DNA from: Hyphomicrobium sp.
GTDB lineage: Bacteria > Pseudomonadota > Alphaproteobacteria > Rhizobiales > Hyphomicrobiaceae
DNA length: 64,000 nt
Assembly (NCBI GenBank): GCA_022843145.1
Contig: JALHOF010000002.1
Location: 186,001-250,000, forward strand
Direction: 5' to 3'
The number at the start of each line of letters is the position of its first letter. Position 1 is the stretch's first letter. Positions 34,312 to 59,501 of the stretch are shown here, in pieces. The notes beneath the pieces were generated by a model that saw nothing but the letters and a program-made list of their open reading frames with translations, had not been told where the DNA came from and ran no database searches. Position numbers and translations under genes: made by a program.

Positions 34312-34388
34312 GCGCCCGTAGCTCAGCTGGATAGAGCACCAGACTACGAATCTGGGGGTCGGAGGTTCGAATCCTTCCGGGCGCGCCA
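34312..34388 (+). tRNA. tRNA-Arg(ACG), integration target
   Basis: Complete cloverleaf with acceptor GCGCCCG/CGGGCGC, D-arm GCTC/GAGC, anticodon arm CCAGA-CTACGAA-TCTGG (anticodon ACG), T-arm GGAGG-TTCGAAT-CCTTC and encoded CCA at 34386-34388. ACG is read as ICG after deamination. The 3' part is duplicated at 57577, showing that an element integrated here and left the gene intact. Confidence 0.97.
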
Positions 34389-34391
34389 GTG
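34343..34391 (+). other. attL: Left attachment site, 49-bp core
   Basis: From the anticodon loop to three bases past CCA, 49 bases are identical to 57577-57625 in the same orientation. After one mismatch, six more bases also match. This is the classic tRNA 3'-end attachment repeat of tyrosine-recombinase elements. Confidence 0.95.
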
Positions 34392-34436
34392 ATTTCAGCA
34401 AGTTAAGGCATCTCACTCACGCAGTCGAGTTTTGCC

Positions 34437-35129: not shown

Positions 35130-35286
35130 GAGGGAAGCGACCAAGAGTTCGCGAGGTCGTCGCTTGTTCCGCTGCTGCATGTCCGATAGTTGTCGAGCGC
35201 TCGACGCACAACAGGGCTTCGCCGAGGCAGCGCTCGCCTTTCAGTCTACTAGATCATCCAGATTTACAGAAGGCACCACCAGCAAG

Positions 35287-36384: not shown

Positions 36385-36388
36385 CGCC

Positions 36389-40764: not shown

Positions 40765-40912
40765 TAACTAGCTCGATCCCAACAGCAGACATCGAGGGTT
40801 AGCGGCAACGCCCTGCCGAAAGGCTCGGTAGCGTGTCAGTTCTCGGACAAACCCGTGGATAGCAAAGTATTTCCGCCGGACAGACCTCGTCGAATCGTTT
40901 GTGATATTCGGC

Positions 40913-42100: not shown

Positions 42101-42614
42101 CATTGTAGCGGCACGCCCTGAGCTGCCGCGCTTCTTCAATGAGGCCCAACTCGTCCAGAATGTCGCGCTCGGCGCCACGCTGATCTGGAGATTCGTCGCA
42201 ACCCACGATCAGGCATCCAAATCGACCTGTCCGCTGCCGCTCTGCTTCGTCGTACTGCCGATCCTGTTCCATCATGTGACGCGCGCCGCCGCCATCTCGA
42301 CATTGCCGAGCTCCCCCTTGGCCAAGTTCATCGAGAAGTTCGACCAGCGGCGTGAGGATCTGCTCGCCCTCCACGATCGCATGCTGGTCATGAAAGCCTT
42401 GTCGCTCCGCTCGATCCAGCTTGCCACCGAGCGTGGATTGATCGTCGTCGTCCCGGTCGATGGGATCGTCGTGGCATCGCTGAAGATCAAGCTTCCCGCG
42501 GCTTGCCAACCGGAAGCCCTGCGCCCGATGCTGCGCGCTGCGGACAAGCTCGGCGGCTGGTGCGCGCCGCACGATCTCGCCCACATATCCAACCAATTGA
42601 GATTGTTCTTCTGA
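42093..42614 (+). CDS. ABC-3C system middle component
   Basis: 173 residues matching the middle component that connects effector and ATPase in ABC three-component systems. There is an N-terminal FFNEAQLVQNVALGATLIWRFV, then the characteristic LPLCFVVLPILFHHVTRAAA block (about residues 47-67), and the helical LSLRSIQLATERGLIVVV. The function is structural by family knowledge. It has eight-base and one-base overlaps with its neighbours, giving a tight operon. Confidence 0.78.
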   Translation: MPDIVAARPELPRFFNEAQLVQNVALGATLIWRFVATHDQASKSTCPLPLCFVVLPILFHHVTRAAAISTLPSSPLAKFIEKFDQRREDLLALHDRMLVMKALSLRSIQLATERGLIVVVPVDGIVVASLKIKLPAACQPEALRPMLRAADKLGGWCAPHDLAHISNQLRLFF

Positions 42615-44932: not shown

Positions 44933-45035
44933 AGTTCAGAGGCGCGTTCCATCGGAACCTGTCATCGGCACTGCAGCATGTCCGAACAGCGACCAGGAGA
45001 GTCGATGCTGACGCCCCTGGTCGCGTGTCTATCCG

Positions 45036-46700
45036 TCAGGCCTCAGGTGCACCCAGCGTGGTCGCCGGGGTGTGAGCCGACCTGACCATCTTCGTGAAGG
45101 TGGCCTTGATCTCCGCGATTACGGTTTCCGTGCTTTCGCGCGACCGCCCCTGGAAGACACGCACCGCATTGTAGTCGCCCGCCTCATGGGCCTTGGCCAA
45201 CCGGTGTCGATCCTCGTCACTCAAGTCCCAAACGAACGTCTGGTTGTAGAAGGCATCGTAGGCCCGTAGTGGCACGTCAGGGTCGAGGCCGAGCGAGAGC
45301 AACTTCTGGCGTGCGGCGCGAGCGATGGGGCGGGTCACTCTTGCCTTCGCGTGTTCCGCCAAAAACTGCTCGAAGCTGACGCTGCGCTTGGTCCCACTGG
45401 ATTCGCTAAAGTGCTCGAACCCCTTCTCCACCCACTCGTTAAGCCCGCGAAAGACGTCCGAGTTGTAGTTCTTTAATAAATCTCGCGCGCTTTTGAGTTT
45501 GCTCGGTTTGTATTCTAGCAATAGCCATAGCCGCATGAGCTGCCCGAATATCAAATCGAGTAGCCATTGGCTGAAGCGCTTTCCGCTGATCCCCTCTCCA
45601 TTATCCATTATCTCTATAGCGCGAGTGTAATTCGCGGCAGTTACATTAGCGGCCTCCAATTGCTCGATGATTTTCGCCTCGCGTTGCATCTGGCGTTGGC
45701 CTTCGTCGTGGATGGTGACGTCAACGCGGACGGTTCGGCTCAAAAATCTCTGGACTTTTTCATCTCCAATCTCGAGCTTTATCGATTCCGCATCAGCTTT
45801 CGCCTTGGCATGCTTGTCATACAGGTTCACCGACCAGGCGAGGCGCTTATCCTTGCGGAAGAGGAACGTGAGCGTCTCAACGCCATCTGGCGTGACCTTG
45901 GTCATCATCTCGAAGCCGAGATCGTCGCACAAGAGCCTGTGAATGTGACCGTCCGAGTAGCTGACCGAGAAGACGGCTCGCAAGAAGCCGAGCCATTGAT
46001 GAGGGGTCTTTGGAGCGGGGTTTACATAGGTGAAGACCTGCGAAGGGCAGTTTCGGAAGGACAACGTCTTGATCCGGTCCTTAGTATCAGCGTGCCAATC
46101 GAAGTTCTTGCTCTGCGACCTGACAATGCGCCGAAGAACTCCGAAGGGTACGCGCATCATGATGCGACGCTCGGTGCGGTGGGATTTCCCTCGCATCGCG
46201 ACGGCGAATGCGTTGTATCCGAGGATGAGAGACGTCGGGTTGGCAAGTATACTGAGCCAATAGCTCCCGTTGCCGTCGCGATTTATCGTAACGATCATTT
46301 CGCTGTGGCGACCATGTCGGTGTTTGACCAAGATCATGTATTTCAGCAAGTCGCCGTGATGCAGGAAGGCATCGGCATTCCTCTCGTTGCTCCCGCCGAC
46401 CGCCGGGCCGCGCACCTTCTTCGTGTCGATCTCATAAGCGATACGCAACGAAAGAGTGTGATGGGCCACTAGCTCCGGCTGTCCCCCGGCACACCGGACT
46501 GCAATCGCATCTAGCGCCTCGGCTACTTGGCGAGCATCGTTGGGGCATAACTTGATTCTGTATTTCGTCTTCGGCTCGGTACCAGGGAGCTTGCCGAGTG
46601 CATTGTTGATCGTATCGAAGCCGATGTCTCTCTTCGCATCACTTGCTGCAATTAGAGCGGTTGGCGAAGTTGTGGCATTCAGATCGTCTAACCAGTTCAT
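45036..46700 (-). CDS. Possible replication initiator (phage gene II/CRI-like)
   Basis: 554 residues from ATG 46700 (MNWLDDLN). The segments SILANPTSLILGYNAFAV, WSVNLYDKHAKAK and RTVRVDVTIHDEGQRQM recall the NP-x-K-x-x-Q-G-x-N, YxK and R-x-E blocks of filamentous-phage gene II and related plasmid replication proteins. The match is partial. The C-terminal half (FSQWLLDLIFGQLMRLWLLL) is unfamiliar. Transcribed opposite to the ABC-3C operon and downstream of the ParB-like gene. If correct, the excised element could replicate. Confidence 0.4.
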   Translation of the reverse strand: MNWLDDLNATTSPTALIAASDAKRDIGFDTINNALGKLPGTEPKTKYRIKLCPNDARQVAEALDAIAVRCAGGQPELVAHHTLSLRIAYEIDTKKVRGPAVGGSNERNADAFLHHGDLLKYMILVKHRHGRHSEMIVTINRDGNGSYWLSILANPTSLILGYNAFAVAMRGKSHRTERRIMMRVPFGVLRRIVRSQSKNFDWHADTKDRIKTLSFRNCPSQVFTYVNPAPKTPHQWLGFLRAVFSVSYSDGHIHRLLCDDLGFEMMTKVTPDGVETLTFLFRKDKRLAWSVNLYDKHAKAKADAESIKLEIGDEKVQRFLSRTVRVDVTIHDEGQRQMQREAKIIEQLEAANVTAANYTRAIEIMDNGEGISGKRFSQWLLDLIFGQLMRLWLLLEYKPSKLKSARDLLKNYNSDVFRGLNEWVEKGFEHFSESSGTKRSVSFEQFLAEHAKARVTRPIARAARQKLLSLGLDPDVPLRAYDAFYNQTFVWDLSDEDRHRLAKAHEAGDYNAVRVFQGRSRESTETVIAEIKATFTKMVRSAHTPATTLGAPEA

Positions 46701-47042
46701 AGTGTGGTCCCTATTTTGAACGCAGACGTGCGACACCAAATGCAGAGCATCTGATTTTACACCCCTGATTGTTTGGAAGATCTCAGAACGCCAATGCCTA
46801 CACCTAACCTGGGGCAAATGGCGCTATTCAGAATGGTGTTCTTAGAAGCGTATTCAATGCGGGGTTTAAGCAGTCACCGCAATTGACAGGCAGTTGCGGC
46901 TTGTTGCAGTCATGGTTATTGGGGCTGTGCTAAGTGATTCTATATCTATCTGTTAGTACCCCCTCTTCATCCAGGGCTTCGATAGCCGCCAAAAGCCCCA
47001 TCTGATCTGTGGTGATTGGCGACTTGCGTCGAGAAAGTTTGC
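46701..47042. other. Intergenic region upstream of the Rep-like gene
   Basis: About 340 bp, AT-richer than the chromosome, with no gene. It should contain the promoter of the Rep-like gene and might hold an origin. I see no clear iterons, only a short repeated GTTGCGGCTTGTTGCAG patch near 46893. Confidence 0.4.
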
Positions 47043-47651
47043 TTAGGCGAGGCGCTGGCGAGCGTTGCGGATCTCGCTCACGCTTGCACCCGATGCGATC
47101 TCTGCGAGTATACGCCGTTGCTGCAATTCACTTCCGCACCTCGCAATCTCGTCGATTAACCCAAGGCTCAAATCCGTTCGCAACTTGAGAATTGCGTGCT
47201 TAATTTCGAGTGGCAGGCGGTTAGCGCGGAGTAGCTGCCTCACGGCCGTAATGCTAACTTCCGCGAGGATTGACAAGCCAAATGCATTGAAGCGGTCGAG
47301 TTCGTCCAACATGCCGAGCCAGTGGGCGCGGTCGAGATCCGATAGATCATAACGCTTCAACTGCTCAATCATGCTGAAGACTCGGTCGTCGCAACTTTTG
47401 TGGACAATTACTTCGGCAGTCGTGCAGCCGCGCTGCTTCGCGTTTTTGAGGCGCCCAAGTCCATCTACGAGTTCGTAAAGATCATAGGCTCCGTGTGGCT
47501 GTGTGACCTCGATCCATCCGGGCCTGAAGTTTCCAGGCTGGCCAATAGATTGAGGATGCTGCTCGCCAAGCTGCTGCTTCAACTTTTTTGAGATTTGGAT
47601 GCGGGATATTCCGGTGGTCACTCGCCGAGTGACGGCTTTGGACGTTGTCAT
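47043..47651 (-). CDS. ParB-like (ParB/Srx N-domain) protein
   Basis: 202 residues from ATG 47651. The pattern ISKKLKQQLGEQHPQSIG, YDLYELVDGLGRLKNAKQRGCTTAEVIVHKS, then MIEQLKRYDLSDLDRAHWLGML follows the ParB N-terminal nuclease-like domain and the start of its HTH linker. The canonical GExR becomes VDGLGRL. It is short compared with chromosomal ParB (about 290) and has no ParA partner. It could be a regulator or DNA-binding accessory for the Rep-like gene downstream. Confidence 0.7.
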   Translation of the reverse strand: MTTSKAVTRRVTTGISRIQISKKLKQQLGEQHPQSIGQPGNFRPGWIEVTQPHGAYDLYELVDGLGRLKNAKQRGCTTAEVIVHKSCDDRVFSMIEQLKRYDLSDLDRAHWLGMLDELDRFNAFGLSILAEVSITAVRQLLRANRLPLEIKHAILKLRTDLSLGLIDEIARCGSELQQRRILAEIASGASVSEIRNARQRLA

Positions 47652-48057
47652 GTTTCGATGCTCGTGAGACGGCGAGGCACTGCTTGACTCCGCGGGAGCC
47701 AAGTCTTCACCTCGTGTTGTTGGGCACTTAGGTGCCAGGGTGCCGCAAAGGCGACCTGGCTTCGATCAGGCGCTGGTTCGTGGGCTCGGTGCTCGGTCCG
47801 TACTCCTTGTATTGCCGCCAAAGACCCCTCTTGAGGTGGGGTGGTTGGCCGTTCGCGACTGTTCAAAGCATACGCGAGTTAGCCGCGGCCCCCAACGGAG
47901 CCGCTAGTGATTGCCATGAAAACGTCGTTTGGGACCAAAGGCTTACCGTGCGCCGGCGCGCACTTTAGGAGTATTGAAGAGCTCTTGTGCCGCGAGGAGA
48001 GGACGACCGCGCAACTACTGATGCGAAGCTGAGATCACTTTGAGCCGTGCCAAGCAG
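47652..48057. other. Gene-free interval in the element
   Basis: About 400 bp between two minus-strand genes. I see no gene, RNA or clear repeat. Confidence 0.4.
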
Positions 48058-48933
48058 TCAGTTCATGAGGTCAATCAATTGTCGTTCTAAGGGGCGTAGG
48101 GGTAATGAAATGCCTTCAACATCGTTCTGCAGGCCGAGTGGCGAGCATTTGTACCCGCGTTCCTTGAGGCGAGAGCAGACGAAGTCGTAGGTCGTCGCAA
48201 GTCTACGCAATTCGTGGGTGCGGCTTGCCTGTGAAAGCAGCGTTTTTGCAAACGACTTCTTGTGAATGGCAGGGGGGGTGAGGATATCGCCGGACTCACG
48301 CCCAATCCATATAAGAGGAATCACGGGTTCAAAACGTTTGCAATAGTCTAGGATCGAATCAAACTTCCGCTCAACATCTGGGTAAATTGGGGTTTGGTTG
48401 AGGGTTTTTGTTCGTCCGTCGCCTCTGTCTTCTAGTATAACCTGGGCTGCTGCGGTGCGCCCTCCCTTCTCTTTTTTGCCCTTCACTCGCTCGAACCGAA
48501 TTGAGAAGTCAGCAACTGCGCGAACACACGTTGCGTGAATAATTAGCTCCCGCTGGCGCTTGGAAAACTGCCTCGGCCGCATGGCGTAGCGAATGCGTTC
48601 CAAGCCAACGCGATGAAATATAAGGTCATCTAACAACTCCCTCGCTGCGTCGTCTTGGATCAGTGCTCGAAGGCGCGCTTTCGAGGTTTCTTTTTTGTGA
48701 GATCGCCCGGCTGCGTGCTGAAGCAACTTTAACGTTGCTAGTGCGCGTGCCGATACGTGAAGACCTCGTTTGACCGTGATGCGGAGGCGGTTTGGGTGCT
48801 CAGATGATGAGTCGGCAGGGCCGCGGCAGGCAAGGATAGCGCACTGCAATTCATAAAGATTGAGCGCGCGCCGGTATAGGGGAGTATTCGGATCGATTAG
48901 TCTGTCGATGCGCCTGCTTATGTCGAACTTCAT
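48058..48933 (-). CDS. Unknown protein, 291 residues
   Basis: ATG 48933 follows GAGGAAAC. The product is basic and helical (MKFDISRRIDRLIDPNTPLYRRALNLYELQCAILACRG). A stretch ELIIHATCVRAVADFSIRFERVKGKKEKGG lies near residue 150, and a C-terminal ELRRLATTYDFVCSRLKERGY near 245. No known motif or family is recognised. It is AT-rich relative to the chromosome. Neighbours are the ParB-like gene and the serine recombinase. Confidence 0.6.
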   Translation of the reverse strand: MKFDISRRIDRLIDPNTPLYRRALNLYELQCAILACRGPADSSSEHPNRLRITVKRGLHVSARALATLKLLQHAAGRSHKKETSKARLRALIQDDAARELLDDLIFHRVGLERIRYAMRPRQFSKRQRELIIHATCVRAVADFSIRFERVKGKKEKGGRTAAAQVILEDRGDGRTKTLNQTPIYPDVERKFDSILDYCKRFEPVIPLIWIGRESGDILTPPAIHKKSFAKTLLSQASRTHELRRLATTYDFVCSRLKERGYKCSPLGLQNDVEGISLPLRPLERQLIDLMN

Positions 48934-49367
48934 GTTTCCTCGTGGATGAAGATCTCGCAGCAAGGGTTCTGAGCCGATGGTTAGATCCCTGACATGTGCA
49001 CTGTTGTAACCGGTTCCGGCGCAGAGCGCAGCGCGCCCTCGGCGTAGGGACGCTTAGGCACTTGGGCCCCGTCGATCAGGTCAAGGTTCCGTGGCCATGA
49101 AGCGCTCGTCGTGCCCGCCGCATTTATTCTCGGGTCTGCCGACGCTCGTGCGGGCCAGGTAGGCGGCCAAGGTCGTGGCGGTGGCGCTCGCCGACGAAAT
49201 TGCGCATCGCGTGGGCAGAGGTTCGGCATGCGTGAGCGTTTTGCCGGGTACACCCAAGCAAGACACGATAGGTGAGACGCCCGACTACGCTTTCTGGGTC
49301 GCATTTTGACTTATGAGACGCATCGGTGCTAGGGTCTAGACCCATAAACAACACTTCGGGCCAGACC
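48934..49367. other. Divergent intergenic region before the serine recombinase
   Basis: About 430 bp without a believable gene. The right end contains the promoter/palindrome described at 49306-49343. A res-type recombination site could be here, but I cannot define its subsites. Confidence 0.45.
49306..49343 (+). promoter_or_regulatory. Promoter and operator-like palindrome of the recombinase gene
   Basis: TTGACT (49306-49311), an 18-bp spacer and TAGGGT (49330-49335) form a plausible promoter. The perfect 12-bp palindrome GGGTCTAGACCC (49332-49343) overlaps the -10 box, the usual place for autorepression. The recombinase ATG is 24 bp further on. Confidence 0.5.
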
Positions 49368-49916
49368 ATGTCAGCGATCTACGGTTACGCACGCGTCAGC
49401 ACGACCGACCAAGACCTCACCATCCAGAGAGCCGCACTTGAGGCGGCTGGCTGCTCAGTCATCAGGGCAGAGAAGGCTTCGGGCACAACGAGGCAGGGTC
49501 GTACCGAACTGGCCAGCATGCTGGAATTCATCAGGCCCGGGGATACGATGGTGGTGACGCGCATCGACCGCCTCGCCCGCAGCCTTCGCGACCTCCAGAA
49601 CATAGTGCATGAGCTGCGCGCCAAAGGTGCGCACCTTAAAGCGACCGAGCAGCCTATCGACACGGCGACGGCGGCGGGCAAAGCGTTCCTCGACATGCTA
49701 GGTGTTTTCGCGGAGTTCGAAACCAATCTTCGACGTGAACGCCAGCTTGAAGGGATCGAAGCCGCGAAGTCGCGCGGCGTCTACAAAGGGCGCCCCAGGA
49801 GCATCAAAGCGGAGGAGGTCAAGAAGCTGCTCGCAGACGGCATGGGAGCGACGGAAATCGCGAAGCAGCTCGGCATCAGCCGCGCCAGCGTCTATCGGCT
49901 GGCGCGCATGCCGTGA
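49368..49916 (+). CDS. Serine recombinase (resolvase/invertase family)
   Basis: 182 residues. The catalytic domain starts MSAIYGYARVSTTDQDLTIQ with nucleophile Ser11. The arginine motifs include MVVTRIDRLARSLRDLQ and AEFETNLRRERQLEGI. The C-terminal HTH is MGATEIAKQLGISRASVYRL. The length is that of Tn3-type resolvases. No transposase is adjacent, so it may be a remnant of a transposon or resolve multimers of the excised element. It marks the border between the two cargo halves. Confidence 0.93.
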   Translation: MSAIYGYARVSTTDQDLTIQRAALEAAGCSVIRAEKASGTTRQGRTELASMLEFIRPGDTMVVTRIDRLARSLRDLQNIVHELRAKGAHLKATEQPIDTATAAGKAFLDMLGVFAEFETNLRRERQLEGIEAAKSRGVYKGRPRSIKAEEVKKLLADGMGATEIAKQLGISRASVYRLARMP

Positions 49917-50281
49917 ATGGCCGCTACTGAGGGTGGAGCCGACGCAATCTGGTGATCGCCGTTCGTCGATTCTGACCCAAGGCGGTCATCGTGCCGGTGC
50001 GCAACACTTGTGTTGCAGGATTGCCGGACGGACGTGTGATGACCGCGTGCGCCGCAGCAGTCGCAGTAGGTCTCTAAAGTGGCAGGCTTGGTAGCGAATG
50101 TGCACGAGACCGCACCCGTTCTCAACGGCGGTCTTGGCGACAGGATGCCGAGGAACTTTAGGACGTCCGCTCGTGCAACGCGACCTGCAACCTCGTCCAG
50201 TTGGTGCTAGTTGGTGGACTTGCGCGCCCTGGTCGTCGGGGATAGGTCCTCGGGATGTAACACTCTCCGACGCAGGCTCAG
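49917..50281. other. Gene-free interval before the two-component genes
   Basis: About 365 bp. No gene or RNA is seen. It should contain the promoter of the sensor kinase operon. This marks the boundary to the second cargo block. Confidence 0.4.
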
Positions 50282-51904
50282 ATGATTGAGGACCGCCAAA
50301 AGCGTTTGCCGGCCGTTTCGACGGTCGTCGTGGCGATCGGATTCGTCCTTCTCTACGTCGGGGTGTCTCTCGCCGCACGGGCGCACGGCGCCGATTTCCA
50401 GTTCCTGCCCTGGGATGCAGGTATTGCACTGAGCTTTGCCCTTCTAGCCCGGATGGGGGCCCGGTGGGCGCCCCTCGTCGTTGCGGCGTCCCTGGCTGCA
50501 GCTTTTGCCCGCGCGGGCTCTGGTGGTCTATCGCCTCCGGCCGTCTGGTCGGCATGCGCGGAGGCGCTGGCGTGTTCGGCGGCAGCATTGGTGCTGCGTT
50601 CTCCCGAGGCAACCATCCCCGATCTCAATCGGGTACGGCCAGTCGTTCGGCTGTTCTTCTCGGTCGCGACCGCTTCGGCTTTGAATGGACTAGCCTCCGC
50701 CGTGGCGATGGTGACAGGCGGGGAGCCGTCGGAGTGGGAGATCGCGTTGACGAGCGGACGCAGTTTTCTCTCTTCGGCGACGGCGCTCATCATGGTGGCG
50801 CCAGTCCTGCTGATGCCGGCACTGGGTCGGCAGGAGCCTATGCGACGGCCACTGATCTCCGCAGAGACGTTCTTGCAGAGTCTCGCCCTGGCCGTTGTCT
50901 CATGGGAAGTCTTTGGCCGCTTCGTGAACGAGGAGATCCATTTCTTTTACGTGCTCTTCCTTCCGCTCGGCTGGATCGCGACCCGGCATGGGCAATCCGG
51001 TGCGGTTGTTGCGATCGCCGTCGTCTATCTCGCCCCACTCGTATCTGATTGGTTCGTGCCGCATCGGGAGCAGGCCATCATAGAACTGCAGATCCGGCTA
51101 TGCGTCCTCGGTGTCACGGCCCTGCTGATCGGCGCCATGGGCAGCGAGCGGCGGCTGACGCAGGAACGCATGTTGGCCAGGCAAGCGGAACTCGCGCATG
51201 TGCAGAGGCTGAACGTGGGATGGGAGATGGCATCGGCGCTGGCGCACGAGATCAACCAGCCGGTGACGGCGGCGATGAACTATACCCAGGCCGCACTGCG
51301 GATGATCTCGGCGCCCGCTCCGGACCTCGAACGAGTCTCCGCCGTGATGCGCAAGGGCCTCGATCAGGTCGAGCGCGTTGGACAGATCGTGCATGGCCTC
51401 AGGGATTTCATGAACAAGGGCGAGCTGCGGCTTGCGCGCACCGACATTTCGGAGACGGTGGACGACGCAATCCGGCTGGTGTCGGCGGAGGCGAGCGCAA
51501 CGGGCGTGAAGCTCGACGTAGGCGGGCTCGCGCCGCTGCCTTCGGTAATGGCCGACAAGACCCAGCTCGTGCAGATCCTGGTCAATCTGATCCGTAATGC
51601 CATTCAGGCCCTGGCGGCGGCCAGACCCGGATCGGGCGCGGTGACCGTCACCGGCCGGGTTGGGGGCAATAACGTCGAGATCATCGTCGCCGACAACGGA
51701 CCGGGCATCGCTCCCGAGATCCGTGACCGCTTGTTCACGCCGTTCGTCACGACCAAAACCAGCGGCATGGGCCTTGGGCTCTCGATCAGCCGCTCGATCG
51801 CGGAAGCGCATCACGGGCAACTCACCGTCGAAAGCCTCGCCAGCGGTGGCACGGCGTTCCATATTGTATTGCCTGCCGCAGTTCCGGAACCGCGAGATGC
51901 CTGA
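50282..51904 (+). CDS. Membrane sensor histidine kinase (MASE1-like sensor, FixL-type core)
   Basis: 540 residues. The first ~290 form about eight transmembrane helices resembling a MASE1 sensory domain (VVAIGFVLLYVGVSLAA, FLPWDAGIALSFALL, then repeated hydrophobic blocks). A short coiled linker leads to the DHp helix with phosphorylated His322 in ALAHEINQPVTAAMNYTQAAL. The ATPase follows with N-box LVNLIRNAIQAL, G1 VADNGPGIAPEI, F-box LFTPFVTTK and G2 GMGLGLSISRSI. HE-I-N-Q-P is typical of FixL-like kinases. The signal is unknown, as there is no PAS/heme domain. It overlaps the regulator by eight bases. Confidence 0.9.
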   Translation: MIEDRQKRLPAVSTVVVAIGFVLLYVGVSLAARAHGADFQFLPWDAGIALSFALLARMGARWAPLVVAASLAAAFARAGSGGLSPPAVWSACAEALACSAAALVLRSPEATIPDLNRVRPVVRLFFSVATASALNGLASAVAMVTGGEPSEWEIALTSGRSFLSSATALIMVAPVLLMPALGRQEPMRRPLISAETFLQSLALAVVSWEVFGRFVNEEIHFFYVLFLPLGWIATRHGQSGAVVAIAVVYLAPLVSDWFVPHREQAIIELQIRLCVLGVTALLIGAMGSERRLTQERMLARQAELAHVQRLNVGWEMASALAHEINQPVTAAMNYTQAALRMISAPAPDLERVSAVMRKGLDQVERVGQIVHGLRDFMNKGELRLARTDISETVDDAIRLVSAEASATGVKLDVGGLAPLPSVMADKTQLVQILVNLIRNAIQALAAARPGSGAVTVTGRVGGNNVEIIVADNGPGIAPEIRDRLFTPFVTTKTSGMGLGLSISRSIAEAHHGQLTVESLASGGTAFHIVLPAAVPEPRDA

Positions 51905-52529
51905 CCAATCCATCTACATCATCGACGACAGCGAAGAGGTGCGGGACTCGCTCGCCGTGCTGCTCGAGTCGGCCGGCTATCGCACCCGGACGTTCGCTTC
52001 GGCCCTCGAATTCCTCGGGGTGGTGCGGCTGGGATGGTTGGGATGCGTAATTGCCGATGTGCGGATGCCGGGGATGACCGGCATCGAGTTGCTGAAGGAA
52101 CTGACATTGCGCGGCATTCGCCTGCCCGTCGTCATTATCACGGCGCACGCCGACGTGCCGATGGCCGTGGCCGCGCTCAAGGCTGGTGCCGTTGACTTTA
52201 TCGAGAAGCCGTTCCGCGACGACGTGCTGCTGGCGAGCCTCAAGCCCGCGCTGGCGACACCGCCCGGTGAGGTGGGGCGCCCCGGCGGGGCCGGCCCGCA
52301 GGCCCGCCTGCGCACGCTTTCCGACCGGGAGCGCGAGGTCATGCTGCTCTTGGTCGCAGGTCACACCAACAAGGTCGTCGCCGACCGCCTCGGCATCAGC
52401 ACCCGCACGGTCGAGGTGCACCGGGCGCACATCATGGAAAAGACAGGTGCGACAAGCCTTGCCGACATGGTCCGGCTGGCTTGCCTCTATGAGGAGCCGG
52501 CATCGCCGGGCACGAAAGAACAAAGGTAG
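51897..52529 (+). CDS. FixJ-family response regulator
   Basis: 210 residues. The receiver is complete: Asp10-Asp11, phosphoacceptor Asp54 in VIADVRMPGMTG, and Lys104 in VDFIEKPF. The LuxR-type HTH is at about 140-200 (LSDREREVMLLLVAGHTNKVVADRLGISTRTVEVHRAHIMEK). It is translationally coupled to the sensor kinase. The likely targets are the Usp/TauE genes that follow, since inverted repeats lie between them. Confidence 0.93.
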   Translation: MPDQSIYIIDDSEEVRDSLAVLLESAGYRTRTFASALEFLGVVRLGWLGCVIADVRMPGMTGIELLKELTLRGIRLPVVIITAHADVPMAVAALKAGAVDFIEKPFRDDVLLASLKPALATPPGEVGRPGGAGPQARLRTLSDREREVMLLLVAGHTNKVVADRLGISTRTVEVHRAHIMEKTGATSLADMVRLACLYEEPASPGTKEQR

Positions 52530-52538
52530 GCTAGCTGT

Positions 52539-52596
52539 CTACGTAGTCTCCACAATAGCGGCGACTCTCATATTCAACTACCCGCATATGTGTAGT
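52539..52596 (+). promoter_or_regulatory. Inverted-repeat operator candidates upstream of the Usp-TauE genes
   Basis: CTACGTAG (52539-52546, perfect palindrome) and ACTAC-N10-GTAGT (52577-52596) share the CTAC/GTAG half-site. They sit 80-140 bp upstream of the first Usp gene, and the FixJ-type regulator gene is immediately before. Half-site sharing is visible. Binding is inferred. Confidence 0.5.
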
Positions 52597-52678
52597 CCCA
52601 GACGGGACGCCACGCCACCCGCTTCCCTGTCGTCGCTCTTCGCAGCGCGCTTCGGTCCGGTTGGCCGGAGGGAAGCCG

Positions 52679-53128
52679 ATGTCCTCCTATCATCGTGTGC
52701 TGTCCGTCGTGGATTCGTCCGACGGGGCCTCTCATGTCATTCGCCGCGCGGCGCTAATGGCGCGACTGTGCGGCGCCACGCTCGCGGTTGCGAGTGTGGC
52801 CGATGCTCCGCCGGGCGGCGACGACTCCATCCATTCGCGCCTCGCCTTTATCGGAGAGGCGACACGCCGCGCCGAGAAGCTGGCCGGCAAGGCCGGCGCC
52901 AGCGATTTCGAGGTGCTCATCAGCGAGCGTGATCGGCATGCGCTGTCTGCCGTGGTCGGCTCTTGGCTGCCGGATCTGGTGGTGGTTTCAGCCAGCGATC
53001 CGCGTGGCCTCACGGGATGGCTCGATAGCCTGCGCGGGGGCTCTTCTTCTATCGACGTCCTGAAGGTCGAGCCGGAAGGACCGGGCATCGGCCGTCGCAT
53101 GGCCAACGCGCTGGCGGGATTGTTCTGA
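52679..53128 (+). CDS. Universal stress protein, single domain, degenerate nucleotide loop
   Basis: 149 residues from ATG 52679, preceded by GGAGGGAAG. The N-terminal strand-loop YHRVLSVVDSSDGASHVIRRAALMARLCGATLAVASV is typical of UspA. The C-terminal glycine loop reads VVSASDPRGLTGWLDSLRGGSSSIDVL instead of the G-x2-G-x9-G(S/T) ATP loop, so it probably does not bind ATP. Its stop shares a base with the TauE start, so they are coupled. Confidence 0.8.
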   Translation: MSSYHRVLSVVDSSDGASHVIRRAALMARLCGATLAVASVADAPPGGDDSIHSRLAFIGEATRRAEKLAGKAGASDFEVLISERDRHALSAVVGSWLPDLVVVSASDPRGLTGWLDSLRGGSSSIDVLKVEPEGPGIGRRMANALAGLF

Positions 53129-54282
53129 TGGCCGAGATCAGTAGCGGCCATCGCGCCAGGTCAGGGGAGGTGGTCGACATGGCCGTCAGTGCGGAACCAA
53201 CTATGGCTGCGGACAGCAGGCCTTCGCTCGCATCGGCTGCGCGGCAGTCCGGCGGCTACAGGCATCTCTTTGTTGCGGTCGAGCGGCTCGACACCTGGGC
53301 TCAGCGTGATCCGCGACGTGCCAGATCGATCTTCCTCGGCAGCCTGCTGCTCAACGTCGTGCTGCTGCTGGCGCTGGCGCACGCCGCAGGCCTAGTACCG
53401 AAACTCTCGCATTGGCTCGCTCTCGATAGCGGGCCGCTGCCGTGGTGGGTCTGGTCGCTGCTGCTGTTCATCGCCACCTTCACGTTGGGAACCGTTGCGG
53501 TGCTCGGCGGCATCGGCGGCGGCGTGCTGTTCGTGCCCATCGTCGGCGGATTCTTCCCGTTCCATATCGACTTCGTGCGCGGCGCCGGCCTGCTTGTCGC
53601 GCTCGCAGGCGCACTGGCTGCGGGCCCCGCTCTGTTGCGCTCGGGCATGGCCAGCCTGAGGCTGGCGCTGCCGATGGCGCTGCTCGGCTCCGCAGCGGCC
53701 ATCGCCGGGGCCACGGTGGGCCTCGCCTTGCCGACCAACGTCGTGCAGACCTCGCTCGGCATCTGCATCCTCAGCGTCGTCGTGCTGATGTCGGTGTCCA
53801 AGAAGTCGGAGTTTCCGCAGGTCTCCAAGGCCGACGCTCTGTCATCGATGCTCGGCATCAACGGCATTTATCACGATCTCGGCTCTGGACGTGACATTCC
53901 CTGGCAGGTTCACCGGACGCCGCAGGCGTTGGTGCTCTTCATCGCGATCGGCTTTATGGCCGGCATGTTCGGGCTCGGCGCAGGATGGGCCAATGTGCCG
54001 GTGCTCAACCTCGTTCTCGGCGCGCCGCTCAAGGTCTCGGTAGCCACCTCGAGCTTCTTGCTGTCCGTTGTCGATAGCTCGGCGGCCTGGGTCTACATCA
54101 ACCGTGGCGCGGTGTTGCCGATCATCGTCGTGCCGTCGCTCGTCGGCATGATGCTTGGCGCCTTCGTTGGCGTTCGGCTCCTGCAGGTGGTCAAGGCATC
54201 GGTGATCCGTTCTTTGCTGATTGGCCTGCTGACGGTGGCGGGCTCGCGCGCGCTGCTCAAGGGCCTCGGCATCTGGGGTTGA
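53128..54282 (+). CDS. TauE/SafE family exporter
   Basis: 384 residues with eight or nine membrane helices after a ~65-residue soluble N-terminus. Two halves carry the family glycine motifs: GTVAVLGGIGGGVLFVPIVGGFF and GFMAGMFGLGAGWANVPVLNLVLGAPLKVSVATS. TauE/SafE proteins export sulfite, sulfoacetate or related organosulfonates. The substrate is unproven here. It is coupled to the Usp gene upstream and followed by a small membrane protein, which may be a partner. Confidence 0.9.
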   Translation: MAEISSGHRARSGEVVDMAVSAEPTMAADSRPSLASAARQSGGYRHLFVAVERLDTWAQRDPRRARSIFLGSLLLNVVLLLALAHAAGLVPKLSHWLALDSGPLPWWVWSLLLFIATFTLGTVAVLGGIGGGVLFVPIVGGFFPFHIDFVRGAGLLVALAGALAAGPALLRSGMASLRLALPMALLGSAAAIAGATVGLALPTNVVQTSLGICILSVVVLMSVSKKSEFPQVSKADALSSMLGINGIYHDLGSGRDIPWQVHRTPQALVLFIAIGFMAGMFGLGAGWANVPVLNLVLGAPLKVSVATSSFLLSVVDSSAAWVYINRGAVLPIIVVPSLVGMMLGAFVGVRLLQVVKASVIRSLLIGLLTVAGSRALLKGLGIWG

Positions 54283-54299
54283 GCGAGGGGAATCACGCA

Positions 54300-54821
54300 A
54301 TGGCAAATGACGAACACTCGTCCGGCCCGCCGAGCTTCGGCTCACGAGGACGTCAGCTCGGCAGCGCCGCGCGGCGGCAATTCACGGCATTCTTCAGCGG
54401 CGAGAAATACTCGTCGGACGGTCGCGCAAGTCGTGAACAGATGGCCTACGCGGAGCTGCTCGACCTCGGGATGAAGGCGGGTCTCGTCGGGATGATCGTC
54501 TGCTTCCTGCTGTACGTCAGCGGAATTGTGCCACCACACGTTCCACTGGACGAGATGCCGCGCTACTGGTCGATGCCGGTACACGAGTATCTAGAGGCGA
54601 CCAAAGTGCCGACCGGCTGGGGCTGGCTGAAGCTCGCCGGGAAGGGCGACTACCTCAATTTCTTGCCGGTTGCCTTCCTGGCGACAATCACCATAGCCTG
54701 CTACCTGCGCATCCTGCCGATGCTGAGTGCCAGGGGTGAGCGCATTTTTTCGGCCATCGTCGTTGCCGAGGTCGCCGTTCTGCTGCTTGCCGTCTCGGGC
54801 TATCTGGCCGGCGGCCATTGA
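54300..54821 (+). CDS. Small three-helix membrane protein of the TauE cassette
   Basis: 173 residues from ATG 54300, after a GAGGGGAA site. A polar ~60-residue N-terminus is followed by three hydrophobic helices: GLVGMIVCFLLYVSGIVPP, NFLPVAFLATITIACYLRIL and IFSAIVVAEVAVLLLAVSGYL. An intervening loop has conserved-looking PRYWSMPVHEYLEATKVPTG. Many TauE genes have a DUF1634 membrane partner of similar topology, but I cannot confirm that this is DUF1634. It starts 17 bp after tauE and ends 16 bp before the tandem Usp. Confidence 0.65.
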   Translation: MANDEHSSGPPSFGSRGRQLGSAARRQFTAFFSGEKYSSDGRASREQMAYAELLDLGMKAGLVGMIVCFLLYVSGIVPPHVPLDEMPRYWSMPVHEYLEATKVPTGWGWLKLAGKGDYLNFLPVAFLATITIACYLRILPMLSARGERIFSAIVVAEVAVLLLAVSGYLAGGH

Positions 54822-54837
54822 GTCGGAGCAATGCGCT

Positions 54838-55689
54838 ATGAGTGAGACGACATCCGCTGCACGCATGCAGCGCATCCTGCTTCCGACCGACGGCTCCGAG
54901 CATTCCGAAGGTGCAGTGCGAGTCGCGATCGAGGCTGCGGCCAAGTGCTCCAGCCAGCTTTTCGCGCTGACGATGGTGATTTCCAATCCCGAGGTCGAGG
55001 CGCTGGCGCCGGAGATCGTCGCCAAGGGCGAGCGTCGCGCACGCGAAATCCTCGACGGTGTCGAGGCCAAGGCCAAGGCGCGCGGAGTCACCGTCGAACG
55101 GCTCGTTCGTCACGGCCAGGACCCGGCGCATCAGATCGTCGGCCAAGCCGAGAAGCGCAACGCGGACATCATCATCATGGGGCGGCGCGGCGTGCGCGGG
55201 TTAGCGCGGATGATGGTCGGCGAGGCGACGGTCAGGGTATGCGGCCGGGCACCCTGCAGCGTCATGGTGGTGCCGCGCGACGGCCAGCTTCCGAAAAGCC
55301 GTATCCTGCTCGCGACCGATGGATCGTCGCACTCGGAGGCCGCCAGCGCACTCGCTGGTCGCTTGGCCGTGCTCTGCGGGCTTCCTGTGACGATCGTGTC
55401 GGTCATCCTGCCGAACCAGAGCGATGCCCGACGCGCGGAAGCCACGGCTGCCGTCGAGCGGATCCGATCGTCGCTGTCGAACCACGGCATCACAGCCGAG
55501 GCCACGACCGTCGAAGCTGTGCGCCCAGAAACCGGCATCATCACCACCGCCGCCGCCAAGGGCGCCGATCTCATCATCGTCGGCAGCCATGGCCGCAGCG
55601 GGCTCCTGGAGAAGGTCTTGATCGGCTCGGTCTCCGAGCGCGTGCTCGGCGATGCCTCGTGCCCGGTGCTCGTGGTTAGGTCAGCTTAG
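54838..55689 (+). CDS. Tandem universal stress protein (two UspA domains)
   Basis: 283 residues with two UspA domains. Domain 1 is RILLPTDGSEHSEGAVRVAIEAA to GRRGVRGLARMMVGEATVRV. Domain 2 (from about residue 155) is RILLATDGSSHSEAASALAG to GSHGRSGLLEKVLIGSVSERVLGDASCPVLVV. Domain 2 keeps the G-x2-G-x9-G-S ATP loop; domain 1 ends the loop in GE. Last gene of the Usp-TauE-membrane-Usp cassette. Confidence 0.92.
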   Translation: MSETTSAARMQRILLPTDGSEHSEGAVRVAIEAAAKCSSQLFALTMVISNPEVEALAPEIVAKGERRAREILDGVEAKAKARGVTVERLVRHGQDPAHQIVGQAEKRNADIIIMGRRGVRGLARMMVGEATVRVCGRAPCSVMVVPRDGQLPKSRILLATDGSSHSEAASALAGRLAVLCGLPVTIVSVILPNQSDARRAEATAAVERIRSSLSNHGITAEATTVEAVRPETGIITTAAAKGADLIIVGSHGRSGLLEKVLIGSVSERVLGDASCPVLVVRSA

Positions 55690-56078
55690 CCGGTCAGCAT
55701 GCGCCGCCGCCATCGTAAATCCGGTCGAGCCAACCGCATCTCTTGGCCTCGACAATTGCTGACGTTACAGATCACTCGGCAGTCTCTGCGTTGGTGCAAA
55801 TTCACCCAACGGCGCTAGAAATCGAGACGCTCGGCGGGCAACTGGACCCGGCCGCATGTCGCCCAGAACAGTGCTCTTCCGATTGCATCGCAGCAAACAC
55901 ACCCCAAATTCTGCCGGGACGGCTGCACACAAGAAGCACATGCCGTCTGATCATCCGTGTCTCGGGACGGCAGGAAGTGGCCCTATGCAGAAAGTCACCT
56001 GACGGAAGCTACTGAGCGCATTGCGTCGGCGTTCTCGATCCGGATCGATGAGGGTACAGCGCTCGCGCAGCCTGGCGA
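55690..56078. other. Intergenic between Usp cassette and integrase
   Basis: About 390 bp with convergent gene ends. No gene, RNA or terminator hairpin that I can support. Confidence 0.4.
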
Positions 56079-57401
56079 CTACCAGCGTAGCCCGCTGGCC
56101 GAGCGACCCTCGACGATCTCGAGCAGACGCCGTTCCCAAAGCTCAAGCGCCCGACGCTTCTCTGCCATGTGGTCGAAAGTCGAGCGGGTCTTGTAGACGC
56201 GGTCACCGAGCGTGGCTCGCATGTCGCTCGTGTGCTGAAGAACGTGACTGCGATATTCGCTTGGGACGCCGAGAGCTGCCAGCTGGTCGACGATCAGCGA
56301 CCGCATGTCGTGGAAGCGCACTTCGTCGCCCATACCTAGACGGCGCCTCATGTCCGTGAATGCGTGCGACGGAGTTCCACGGTCGACGTGCTGATTGGGC
56401 AGGCCGTCTGCGGGGAACAGGAAAGGCGAATCTTGCGCGTCGGCCGCCGCTTCTTTCAGGATCGATAGTGCCAGCGGCGGCAAAGGCACCCGCTGGTCCT
56501 CACGGGACTTGTTGCCCTCGCGCGTGCCGGGGATGAACAGATTTGCTTCAGGGCCGTCGTCCAACTCATTCTGGCGAGCGGCAATCAGTTCGCTTACGCG
56601 CTTTCCCAGCAAGATGGCGAGCTGCAGTAGACGGCGATTAGTTTTGCTGAGTTGCCTGTGCGCTTCGCTCCACATGGCGCGAAGCTCGTCGTTCGTTGGC
56701 GCGCGATGTTGCTTGCCCTCCGGATTCCCTTCCGGGACTGGATTGTCGACGCCGCGCGTCGGGTCACGCTGAATGTAGTCTTTGTCGGCTGCATGGCCGC
56801 AAACACTTCGAATGAGTTTGAGTGCCTTGGTCGCCTGCAGCCCACGGTGGCCCTTGGTTTCGTCAGTGGTGGCGCGTCGAACCTTTTCAAGGACTGTGGC
56901 TATCTTCGCCTTCTCGAGCTGGCCGATCGGCGCGGCGCCGATGTAGGGCTCGACGTGGAGCTTGTAGATGCGCTCGTATTCCTCGCGCGTGCGCGGGCGC
57001 AGTGACTTGGGACGCGCGGGGTTGTCGAGCCATTCGGCGTAGACCTCCGCAAAAGTGGCAACGGCCTTACGCGGATCGACACCATCGACCTTGACCAAAC
57101 GCCGCCGTTCGGCGGCAAGCTCAGTCGCCCTGGCCAGGGGAATGTAGCCCTCGCGATCGTTCTCATTGAACGTGCCGAGCGTGTCGATCTTTTCGGTATC
57201 CCCGACATAGTAGCGCACCCGCCAGATGCGTTTGCCCAGTGCAGTATTGTCGGGAATGCAATCGAGCTGGAGCCCCTTGATGCCGGTGAAGGTGTATCGG
57301 GTTCGCTTGCCGCCGAGCGGCGCGAGCTTGGCAACTACACGTGGGTGCGGGGCGACTTGGGGCATGGAGGCTCTCTGCATTGCGAGCTGATCGTCTGCCA
57401 C
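56079..57401 (-). CDS. int: Tyrosine recombinase (site-specific integrase of the element)
   Basis: 440 residues (GTG 57401; ATG 57380 or 57365 are alternatives). An N-terminal arm-binding region (GKRTRYTFTGIKGLQLDCIPDNTALGKRIWRVRYYVGD, like the DUF4102 type) is followed by a core-binding SAM-like domain (ATFAEVYAEWLDNPARPKSLRPRTREEYERI). The catalytic domain shows Arg in LGKRVSELIAAR, HDMR, LQHT and the nucleophile Tyr in DRVYKTRSTF. Located 176 bp inside the right att site and reading inward, as expected for the integrase of this element. Confidence 0.93.
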   Translation of the reverse strand: MADDQLAMQRASMPQVAPHPRVVAKLAPLGGKRTRYTFTGIKGLQLDCIPDNTALGKRIWRVRYYVGDTEKIDTLGTFNENDREGYIPLARATELAAERRRLVKVDGVDPRKAVATFAEVYAEWLDNPARPKSLRPRTREEYERIYKLHVEPYIGAAPIGQLEKAKIATVLEKVRRATTDETKGHRGLQATKALKLIRSVCGHAADKDYIQRDPTRGVDNPVPEGNPEGKQHRAPTNDELRAMWSEAHRQLSKTNRRLLQLAILLGKRVSELIAARQNELDDGPEANLFIPGTREGNKSREDQRVPLPPLALSILKEAAADAQDSPFLFPADGLPNQHVDRGTPSHAFTDMRRRLGMGDEVRFHDMRSLIVDQLAALGVPSEYRSHVLQHTSDMRATLGDRVYKTRSTFDHMAEKRRALELWERRLLEIVEGRSASGLRW

Positions 57402-57414
57402 TGTTCGCGAGTTC

Positions 57415-57446
57415 TGTCACGCCCTGGTCACGCCTAAGTCTGTCGC
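57415..57446 (+). repeat. Right copy of terminal direct repeat (possible integrase arm site)
   Basis: Matches 34437-34468 at 29 of 32 positions, with GTCACGCC twice. It sits 13 bp upstream of the integrase start and 131 bp from the right att core, so integrase binding could also repress its own gene. Confidence 0.75.
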
Positions 57447-57576
57447 ATAGAGAAGTCTGGTGTCCTCCAAAGTCCCTGAGCTTCGAGCTTCAACATGCTG
57501 CTTTTACATCGTTTTGCGTGGACTCGGAGGGACAAGTGGGGTCACTGAGATTCATCAGCGATCTCGGCTGCGCCGA

Positions 57577-57625
57577 ACTACGAATCTGGGGGTCGGAGGT
57601 TCGAATCCTTCCGGGCGCGCCAGTG
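57577..57625 (+). other. attR: Right attachment site, 49-bp core
   Basis: Identical to the anticodon loop-to-3'-end part of tRNA-Arg(ACG) at 34343-34391. No 5' half of a tRNA is present, so this is the scar copy, not a second tRNA gene. Confidence 0.95.
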
Positions 57626-57689
57626 TTTTCAGTGGGTTTTCGGCTGCAAAAGCCAGTGACGAAACCCTACGGGCCTCGATTTACAAAGA

Positions 57690-58030
57690 CCGTCCGACCA
57701 CCAATGCGCTCATCGCATGGCCACGGATCATCGGCACCTCGCGCTTCCTGATCCTCGGCTGGCTGTCGGCCATGTTCGGTCGAAGCCGATCATCCTCGCC
57801 GGTTGCGTGATCGGGGCTCTGACCGACTTCCCGCTATTCAAGCTGATGGCTCAGACGGCGAACCCTGACCTCTACGCGGCCCGGGAGAAGACAGCCGTGG
57901 TCGTCGTTTCCGATCCCGCCGACTGCTCGTTCCAGTTCAACCCGACAGGCACCGCCAAGTTCGCCAATTGAATTGCTGCGACATCGCCAAGGCGGCGCTC
58001 GCCCGGATGGCCGTGCGTTCGACGACGAAC
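57690..58030 (+). pseudogene. Frameshifted fragment of an MFS (metabolite:proton symporter type) transporter
   Basis: Three frames join to give a recognisable stretch: IIGTSRFLILGWLSAMFGR, then after a one-base loss near 57780 KPIILAGCVIGALTDFPLFK ... SDPADCSFQFNPTGTAKF, then after a stop at about 57970 CDIAKAALARMAVRSTTN. This order matches the central loop of proline/betaine-type symporters (GWLSDxxGRKP, CSFQFNP, CDIAK). Both ends are missing. It lies just outside the right att site. Confidence 0.75.
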
Positions 58031-58088: not shown

Positions 58089-59501
58089 TCAGGCCTGCAC
58101 CGCCGCCTCCGGCGCGATATCGCTGGCGCGCACGACGGTGACGGCGCACGGCGCCTCGGCCGTGATCTGCATCGTCAGCTTGTTCGCCGCCGCACCGCCC
58201 GACGTTGGAGCGCCGATGACGAGATGGTCGACCTTGTTGGATTTTGCAAAATCCAGGACGCCGTTGGCGATGTTTCGCGCCTCGATCAGATGGTAGGTGA
58301 TCTTGCTGCGCGGCAGCTGCAGCGGGCCCGCCCACACCCTGAGCTCGGCAATGCGGCTGACATGGATGCTGTCGCCGGCCTTGTCGGCGTTGTCGTCGAT
58401 GGCGATCAGCGAAGTTGGCATGACGTTGAGACATGCGAGGCGGGCGCCGGGAATATTGGCCAGGGCATTGACCGCGGCTTCGAAAAGGGCCTGCCGTAAG
58501 TGATCGAGACCTGGCCGCAGATCGACCGCCACCAGAATGATCGGCGCGCGCGGGGCCGGCTTCGTCGCCGCCGCCTCGATCGCGCGCATCGTTTTGCGCA
58601 CCCGCCGCCAGCGTCCGAAGGTGATCTTGAAATCCGATCGTTCGGCGCGGCCCGACCGCTCGGTCAGCTCGACCAGATCCAGATGCCTCAAATCGAACGC
58701 CAATTCCTCGGCTGAAGCGTAGCGCTCCGTCGGCAGGGGTTCGAGACACTTCAAGATGACCTCCTGCAGCGAAGGTTCGATGTCGGGCAGGAACTTTCGC
58801 GGCGGATAGGGATCGCGCCATACGCGCTGGCGCACCTCTTTCATGCGTCCGGGCGCACCGAACGGCAGCTCACCGGTGGCCATCTGGTACATGATGGCGC
58901 CCAAACCAAAGATGTCGCTGCGCTTGTCCGAGCGGACGCGCAGGAGCTGCTCGGGCGCCATGTACTCCGTCGTTCCCGTCGGCCGATGGTATTGTTCGTC
59001 GAGCAAATCCGGCAAGTGCTCGTGACGCGAAAGTCCGAAATCGATGATGACGGCCTCGCCGCCGGTGCGGAACAGAATGTTTGCCGGCTTCAAATCAAGG
59101 TGCAACACGTGCTGACTGTGCAGATCAGCCAGCGCATCGGCGATGGCCGTCGACAGTGTGACGACGTCGTCGAGCGGCAGACGACCGCCGGCGATGCGCT
59201 TCAGCAATGTCGGACCGCCGACGTACTCCATGACAATGTAGGGCTGCTTGGTGAACTCGCCGATCGCCACGAGCTTCGGCACTTGGAAGCCGGAAAGCTC
59301 GGCCATGATCATCTGCTCGACCTCGAACCCGACCAACTGCGAGTGATCTCCGTCGTCGAGTAACGGGACCTTCATGACGATAGGAAAGGCGATGTCAGGG
59401 TGGCTCACGCGCCAGATGGCGGCCATGCCGCCGCGATGCAGCCGCTCCTCGAGCAGGAACCCGTCGATCGTCATCCCGGTGTCGAGTTGTGCCTTGGCCA
59501 T
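58089..59501 (-). CDS. Ser/Thr protein kinase fused to a universal stress domain
   Basis: 470 residues. Hanks-type kinase (about 15-275): Gly loop LEERLHRGGMAAIWRV, Lys44 in IVMKV, catalytic loop HVLHLDLKPANIL (HLD instead of HRD), DFG in VIIDFGLSR, and activation segment GTTEYMAPEQ. After a basic linker, a UspA-like domain (about 325-465) runs from IILVAVDLRPGLDHLRQALFEAAVNAL to DHLVIGAPTSGGAAANKL. The kinase probably responds to the ligand or stress sensed by the Usp domain. It is just outside the element but shares the stress theme of its right half. Confidence 0.9.
   Translation of the reverse strand: MAKAQLDTGMTIDGFLLEERLHRGGMAAIWRVSHPDIAFPIVMKVPLLDDGDHSQLVGFEVEQMIMAELSGFQVPKLVAIGEFTKQPYIVMEYVGGPTLLKRIAGGRLPLDDVVTLSTAIADALADLHSQHVLHLDLKPANILFRTGGEAVIIDFGLSRHEHLPDLLDEQYHRPTGTTEYMAPEQLLRVRSDKRSDIFGLGAIMYQMATGELPFGAPGRMKEVRQRVWRDPYPPRKFLPDIEPSLQEVILKCLEPLPTERYASAEELAFDLRHLDLVELTERSGRAERSDFKITFGRWRRVRKTMRAIEAAATKPAPRAPIILVAVDLRPGLDHLRQALFEAAVNALANIPGARLACLNVMPTSLIAIDDNADKAGDSIHVSRIAELRVWAGPLQLPRSKITYHLIEARNIANGVLDFAKSNKVDHLVIGAPTSGGAAANKLTMQITAEAPCAVTVVRASDIAPEAAVQA

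Follow-up and report, generated by a model that had tools for sequence, protein, structure and literature searches.

A TauE-family transporter with a constant small membrane partner and an association with DsrA, carried on a tRNA island of Hyphomicrobium sp.

The window analysed here is a 64,000-nucleotide (nt) stretch of a Hyphomicrobium sp. genome (assembly GCA_022843145.1, contig JALHOF010000002.1, positions 186,001 to 250,000 of the forward strand). Between positions 50282 and 55689 it carries a cassette of six open reading frames (ORFs) on the plus strand, all confirmed and five of them with matches in a Pfam search, in which a TauE/SafE-family transporter is followed by a small membrane protein (SMP) and a tandem universal stress protein (Usp). 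The main interest of this cassette lies beyond what the first-pass annotation of the DNA had claimed for it: a TauE subfamily that is linked to DsrA and accompanied by a constant, unnamed membrane partner. The cassette comprises the following features, with Pfam E values unless stated otherwise.

50282..51904, plus strand: sensor histidine kinase (MASE1 1.1e-13, HisKA 2e-6, HATPase_c 2.9e-27)
51897..52529, plus strand, ATG start: FixJ/NarL-type response regulator (Response_reg 2e-29, GerE 2.8e-19)
52530..52678, plus strand: gap of 149 nt between the regulator stop at 52529 and the Usp1 ATG at 52679
52679..53128, plus strand, ATG start: Usp1, a single-domain divergent universal stress protein of 149 amino acids (Usp, 36.4 bits)
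53128..54282, plus strand: TauE/SafE-family transporter (TauE 2.2e-34)
54300..54821, plus strand, ATG start: SMP, with no Pfam family of its own and three long helices
54838..55689, plus strand, ATG start: Usp2, a tandem universal stress protein (Usp 1.5e-50, in two stretches)

The kinase and regulator genes overlap by 8 nt, the stop of Usp1 and the start of TauE are shared (TGATG) at 53128, and spacings of 17 and 16 nt separate TauE from SMP and SMP from Usp2. The six genes and these spacings are as the first-pass annotation had described them. Its description of one cassette holds for the tight spacings but not for a single run: because 149 nt separate the regulator stop from the Usp1 ATG, the set forms two tight groups, kinase-regulator and Usp1-TauE-SMP-Usp2. 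No known RNA element is found at the gathering threshold in 49900-57700. A reading of the cassette as a transposon was rejected, an inverted-repeat search over 48500-56200 having returned one internal 19-nt pair only.

A single scan of 84,980 species genomes yields at least 491 confirmed relatives of the window TauE, and the neighbourhood counts use the best 80 of these, a set biased towards close relatives (locus L005 is the same DNA as L084, and only the latter is counted; L007 to L009, which are 33-36% relatives, lie outside the 80). SMP is present in 79 of the 80 loci; in L069, which has no SMP match, the TauE match stops 131 nt before the contig end. The start of SMP lies -60 to 200 nt from the TauE stop in 74 loci, with L014, L015, L026, L045 and L077 outside this range, and 40 of the 79 loci having SMP show a Usp start in the same range relative to the SMP stop. 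The adjacency of TauE and SMP exceeds chance. Under an ORF-based rule, 72 of the 87 TauE ORFs in the subfamily cluster have SMP no more than 600 nt downstream, against none of the 14 other TauE paralogs that these loci contain. Eight of these 14 have an adjacent Usp (L011, L021, L026, L029, L040, L045, L063 and L068 hold this second TauE type). Since the paralogs include 0/14 with SMP but 8/14 with Usp, Usp is a general companion of TauE and SMP is specific to the subfamily.

The same core is seen in a sample of 398 Pseudomonadota genomes, in which TauE was counted at E ≤ 1e-60. Neighbourhoods from 12 of the 13 other TauE carriers include 11 with SMP, followed by Usp in 10, and the twelfth is cut by a contig end; the thirteenth carrier (G637, locus L006) has SMP and a Usp-like ORF. 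No counterpart of Usp1 stands beside TauE in 85 loci, the one weak match (L026) being located away from TauE. The first-pass annotation had called for a search for the six-gene order and had counted an order unique to this strain against its proposal. Across the 85 loci the exact order is unmatched, whereas the TauE-SMP-Usp core is widespread and a MASE1 kinase and FixJ-type regulator with TauE-SMP-Usp recur in another genome (L074); uniqueness is confined to the exact six genes. No description of the TauE-SMP pair was found in a literature search mostly confined to non-subscription journals.

The TauE domain scores 119.6 bits against a gathering cut-off of 32.6 over residues 113-374, which places the protein in the TauE/SafE sulfite exporter family (PF01925; TSUP, DUF81). 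With this family it shares the domain and a context of sulfur metabolism; it differs in its dedicated SMP partner, an N-terminal extension, co-occurrence with DsrA, the Usp genes and the sensor pair. No relative by sequence is found among solved structures at E ≤ 0.01. In a TauE tree the window protein is placed together with betaproteobacterial and a few alphaproteobacterial sequences (89/86 support), within a wider group that includes gammaproteobacteria such as Thiomargarita (93/99). It sits on a long branch, no starred set contains it, and the bootstrap is not settled. Judged by record titles, the subfamily occurs in sulfate reducers and sulfur oxidisers alike. Among the distant relatives, the TauE of L007 (G596; 36%) lies beside a small membrane protein and two tandem genes that we take, from their sequence, to be FolD-like; this neighbourhood may be connected with one-carbon metabolism.

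Even at E ≤ 1, SMP matches no Pfam family. Its AlphaFold2 model, built from 59 sequences (those of the window and L006, plus 57 picked for diversity from the 79 loci), has a mean pLDDT of 88 and predicts three long helices (45-74, 121-144 and 148-166), the first two joined by an ordered helical loop. Six columns of the 59-row alignment are invariant, including W90, W107 and D117. A known fold was sought and rejected: PDB sequences searched with a profile yielded a single chance match (E 0.17), and Foldseek against the PDB gave nothing below E 1.6. SMP is probably a distant relative of DUF1634 (PF07843), because 27 of the 59 homologs match that family weakly (E ≤ 1, best 2.9e-5). The window SMP has no match at E ≤ 1 and so falls short of the gathering cut-off of 27.5 bits; the homolog in L006 reaches 15.5 bits. 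No mention of the name DUF1634 was found in the literature searched.

The association with DsrA emerges from the 398-genome sample, in which DsrA was counted at E ≤ 1e-80 and the TauE and DsrA samples were treated as one draw (same request, same genome handles). TauE occurs in 14 genomes, the host included, and DsrA in 53. DsrA is present in 13 of the 14 TauE-positive genomes versus 40 of the 384 TauE-negative ones, giving an odds ratio of 112 (Fisher p 1.3e-11) that is uncorrected for kinship, several carriers sharing families. The sole TauE genome without DsrA in the sample, G819, has 8% contamination. Among 18 genomes hand-picked for breadth from the loci and covering nine phyla, as taken from record titles, DsrA exceeds its cut-off in 17, from eight phyla; the remaining genome is a 1.1-Mb bin titled Euryarchaeota.

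Sulfur genes also lie close to some of the 80 loci. A SoeABC-type operon (Mo-oxidoreductase, FeS protein and DmsC anchor, at least two subunits) stands just upstream in 18, 18 loci have sat, aprA, tusA, dsrE or sqr-like genes within 6 kb, and 25 loci have one or both; these labels derive from single cluster representatives, of which soeA, soeC, tusA, dsrE and aprA were checked, sat via the host gene only, and sqr not at all. The label 'SoeABC-type' describes domain make-up, no model having matched SoeA over its cut-off, and the cluster labelled 'soeB' (c85) is mixed, its representative having turned out to be DsrO. These counts bear on the view that the protein is a TauE/TSUP permease of the usual kind that moves another small anion or an organosulfonate, with shared anoxic, sulfidic habitats producing the link to DsrA. 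Such a permease would suit the general assignment that Pfam gives to TauE and the poorly known functions of TSUP proteins, as described in an available excerpt of PMC5840216, yet DsrA in 17 of the 18 picked genomes and the odds ratio make a link that is strong for habitat alone to produce, and sulfur genes accompany the 25 loci just mentioned; this explanation is quite improbable.

The host has the genes that mark a Dsr-type sulfur metaboliser (dsrAB, dsrMKJOP, dsrC and dsrL). Its DsrA scores 560 bits, over the cut-off, and an adjoining second Dsr match (104 bits, below the cut-off) is taken as DsrB by position. In the run dsrM-K-L-J-O-P, DsrK is over its cut-off (588 bits) and DsrM is below (160 against 300 bits), the DsrL-like flavoprotein matches PRK12771 with 690 bits, DsrO and DsrP are assigned by position and Pfam, and DsrJ by position only. 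A DsrC/TusE-family protein (92 bits), ATP sulfurylase (Sat) and SoxB are each over cut-off. The DsrL-like gene together with soxB, presumably a mark of the oxidative direction, suggests that the host runs Dsr oxidatively. The host also encodes a SoeA-like protein (54% to a Gallionellaceae sequence), its gene being followed by sat (G000:C1 near 70.9-75.9 kb, L094), and no SoeB- or SoeC-type genes are found in the 20 kb examined.

The sensor pair resembles FixLJ in its FixJ-type regulator, its FixL-type kinase core and the overlap of the two genes, and departs from it in that the kinase has a MASE1 membrane input and no PAS match. The regulator has the receiver and GerE domains of FixJ-type regulators and matches the NCBIfam FixJ model (NF006900) over nearly its full length, with 232 bits against a cut-off of 255; the kinase scores 194 bits against 850 for FixL (NF041777) and matches at residues 289-534 only. 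Because both proteins are below the equivalog cut-offs, the pair is classed by sequence as FixJ/FixL-like, not as FixLJ. Full-length FixJ-type regulators at 38% identity or more occur in two of the 85 loci (L074 and L036). In L074, from an uncultured Magnetospirillum metagenome-assembled genome, TauE-SMP-Usp is preceded by a MASE1-PAS kinase and a regulator of 51% identity, and a divergent LuxR-type regulator lies in between. A different two-component pair, whose regulator we take from its motifs to be NtrC-like, is found in L130 (G728), where 33 nt separate its end from TauE downstream. As the pairs of L074 and L130 differ, different sensor pairs adjoin the same transporter core.

These arrangements also bear on the alternative that two units merely lie side by side, the targets of the sensor pair being elsewhere and the functional module consisting of TauE-SMP-Usp2 only, possibly together with Usp1. 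The 149-nt gap, in which a sigma-70-type scan finds no promoter-like site, and the presence of such a regulator in only two of the 85 loci point that way, while the similar pair upstream of the core in L074 and the different pair close to TauE in L130 point the other way; the alternative is judged unlikely but not negligible. Under the reading in which the pair controls its neighbours, the gap would hold the operator. It contains the only TACGTAG place of the window, the palindrome CTACGTAG at 52539-52546, and CTACGTAGTCTCCA in the gap matches 11 of 14 positions of a pattern joined from two published in-vitro FixJ consensus motifs, GTAMGTAG and GTAGTTTCCC, as quoted in an excerpt of PMC4999443; the R. 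palustris fixK promoter contains GTACGTAG (PMC13327599, in the part available). The site was picked post hoc, and none as good is found in L074. Allowing three mismatches, the window holds two matches versus about 2.5 expected by chance per 64 kb, and because matches are no more frequent than chance, the site is a candidate operator as a weak hint only.

The cassette sits in a tRNA-Arg(ACG) island that spans 34.3-57.6 kb of the window and is delimited as follows.

34312..34388, plus strand: tRNA-Arg(ACG), the left island end (ARAGORN)
34336..34398, plus strand: att-like direct repeat, left copy, 63 nt, 94% identical to the right copy
49326..49916, plus strand: serine resolvase just upstream of the cassette (Pfam Resolvase 2.6e-40)
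56079..57401, minus strand: tyrosine integrase beside the right repeat (Phage_integrase 5.8e-11, N-terminal SAM-like domain 4.3e-9; phrog_1 integrase 6.6e-44)
57570..57632, plus strand: att-like direct repeat, right copy, a 3' part of the tRNA (repeat search)

The integrase and the duplicated tRNA end identify an integrative element at a tRNA. The window aligns with the congener G1015 in two stretches that lie left of the tRNA and run through it, at 82 and 88% identity; the similarity ends at the tRNA 3' end, and the right flank of the window is not found in the 4 kb beyond. Of 99 genomes sampled in the family, one has TauE (E ≤ 1e-30), with no match in three sampled congeners (54-98% complete), and SMP occurs in 1 of 297 sampled genomes of the order; at the level of the class, TauE (E ≤ 1e-25) is found in 5 of 385, two of the others (G340 and G637) being more than 60% identical. 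Horizontal acquisition of the cassette, which the first-pass annotation had suggested, is well supported by the tRNA island with its integrase and att-like repeat, the single family genome with TauE and the synteny with G1015 that ends at the tRNA. Since TauE is rare in the family and class samples and SMP in that of the order, the host probably received the TauE cassette from elsewhere. Further ideas about its origin were rejected. The cassette is not compositionally foreign, its GC content of about 0.64-0.66 being like that of the flanks; the GC dips of the island lie away from it, at 35-38 kb (0.51-0.56) and 45-49 kb (about 0.55). Plasmids carry no SMP match and only TauE matches of at most 36.9% identity, and none was confirmed among viral contigs.

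The island holds further genes and repeats. Direct repeats of 33 nt (91%; 34436-34468 and 57414-57446), each with TCACGCC twice, lie just inside the island ends and may be integrase arm or excisionase sites, and an AlpA-type regulator gene is also located between the ends. A Lamassu-like three-gene set occupies 40901-44572 on the plus strand in the order LmuA-LmuC-LmuB (PADLOC: 2.1e-40, 2.6e-11 and 7.9e-117; Pfam names ABC-3C CTD7 and DUF3732). A GmrSD_N-type protein followed by a HEPN-domain protein at 34759-37048, plus strand, matches NsnA (1.9e-59) and PD-T4-2_A (1.7e-37) in PADLOC and is a second candidate defence pair. The lower-GC stretch at 45000-49000 encodes a weakly ParB-like protein and two larger ones that match nothing in Pfam, PHROG or PADLOC, and is perhaps a plasmid remnant. 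Just beyond the right island repeat, a Ser/Thr protein kinase with a C-terminal Usp domain is encoded at 58089-59501 on the minus strand.

The cassette is read as a locally regulated sulfur-oxyanion transport module, most likely for sulfite, that the island carried into a bacterium with Sox and Dsr; this reading is considered about evenly poised between right and wrong. A sulfur oxyanion is the likely cargo because of the association of TauE with DsrA, and the sulfite/sulfonate-type cargo class named in the first-pass annotation is in this respect probably right. In the proposed mechanism, the MASE1 kinase and the FixJ-type regulator would act as a switch, the signal being perhaps a sulfur species or the redox/respiratory state. 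In its presence the regulator, once phosphorylated, would occupy the 149-nt gap and activate the group Usp1-TauE-SMP-Usp2. TauE would serve as the permease, and because SMP is its dedicated membrane partner, a two-protein transporter complex is probable; the tandem Usp would be a cytosolic companion, probably tuning the transporter or signalling stress. Activation of Usp proteins by the cassette, as annotated at first, is a proposal from gene order only. Sulfite made by cytoplasmic DsrAB would then cross the membrane, which would relieve toxicity or allow periplasmic Sox to finish the oxidation. According to an excerpt of PMC6397845, Sox can finish Dsr-made sulfite only after membrane crossing, and the host has both dsr genes and soxB. 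A similar case is H. denitrificans, an alphaproteobacterial thiosulfate oxidiser, whose YeiH and TauE (Hden_0720) are named for sulfite excretion during sulfur oxidation in the accessible part of PMC12423496; that host uses sHdr and ArsR-type repressors, and the two TauE proteins are likened by description only.

Several observations weigh against this reading, in addition to the kinship behind the odds ratio and the chance-level frequency of the operator match. Because 40 of the 53 DsrA genomes in the sample are without TauE, the link is one-way and TauE is not essential to Dsr metabolism. None of the scored sulfur genes lies nearby in 55 of the 80 loci (64 of the 80 have at least 4 kb upstream), and the SoeABC-type operon is found in one of the 12 phylum-sample neighbourhoods (L131). 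At other loci the two-component system is of another kind or absent, so that the FixJ-type pair may adjoin TauE by chance. As to direction, a TauE homolog of Archaeoglobus is proposed to import sulfite in the excerpt available of PMC3949148. With import proposed there and excretion in Hyphomicrobium, transport could run either way, and import, sulfite-to-Sox transfer and sulfate transport fit as well as the export of toxic sulfite.

The occurrence of the subfamily in both reducers and oxidisers likewise suits sulfate as much as sulfite. A Dsr-associated sulfate transporter, working as an importer in reducers and releasing the end product from oxidisers, would agree with this distribution and with the sat, aprA or SoeABC-type genes near some loci. 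It would also agree with a TSUP clade B that, in the available part of PMC5840216, is conserved in 25 of 44 sulfate-reducing genomes from six phyla and raised as a possible primary sulfate transporter, a clade likened to the present one by description only. On the other hand, sulfite is the substrate ascribed to the TauE proteins with a published role (Weinitschke 2007, cited in excerpts of PMC12423496 and PMC3949148), and a sulfate cargo is rated as rather unlikely.

In conclusion, beside the reading as a sulfite module, a broader proposal is put forward tentatively, the balance leaning slightly against it: TauE-SMP may form a two-subunit transporter family, not recognised before, that serves DsrAB-type sulfur metabolism specifically, in reducers and oxidisers alike, and of which the island version would be mobile, under sensor control and accompanied by phage-defence genes. 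The passage of sulfite and sulfate across the membrane in Dsr-type oxidisers and reducers is poorly settled, and functional prediction within TSUP is called not feasible in the excerpt of PMC5840216. A TauE subfamily that has a constant membrane partner, occurs with DsrA in eight phyla and is found here on an island offers a concrete, testable candidate. If the proposal is true, TauE-SMP would be a missing sulfite/sulfate gate of the dissimilatory pathway.

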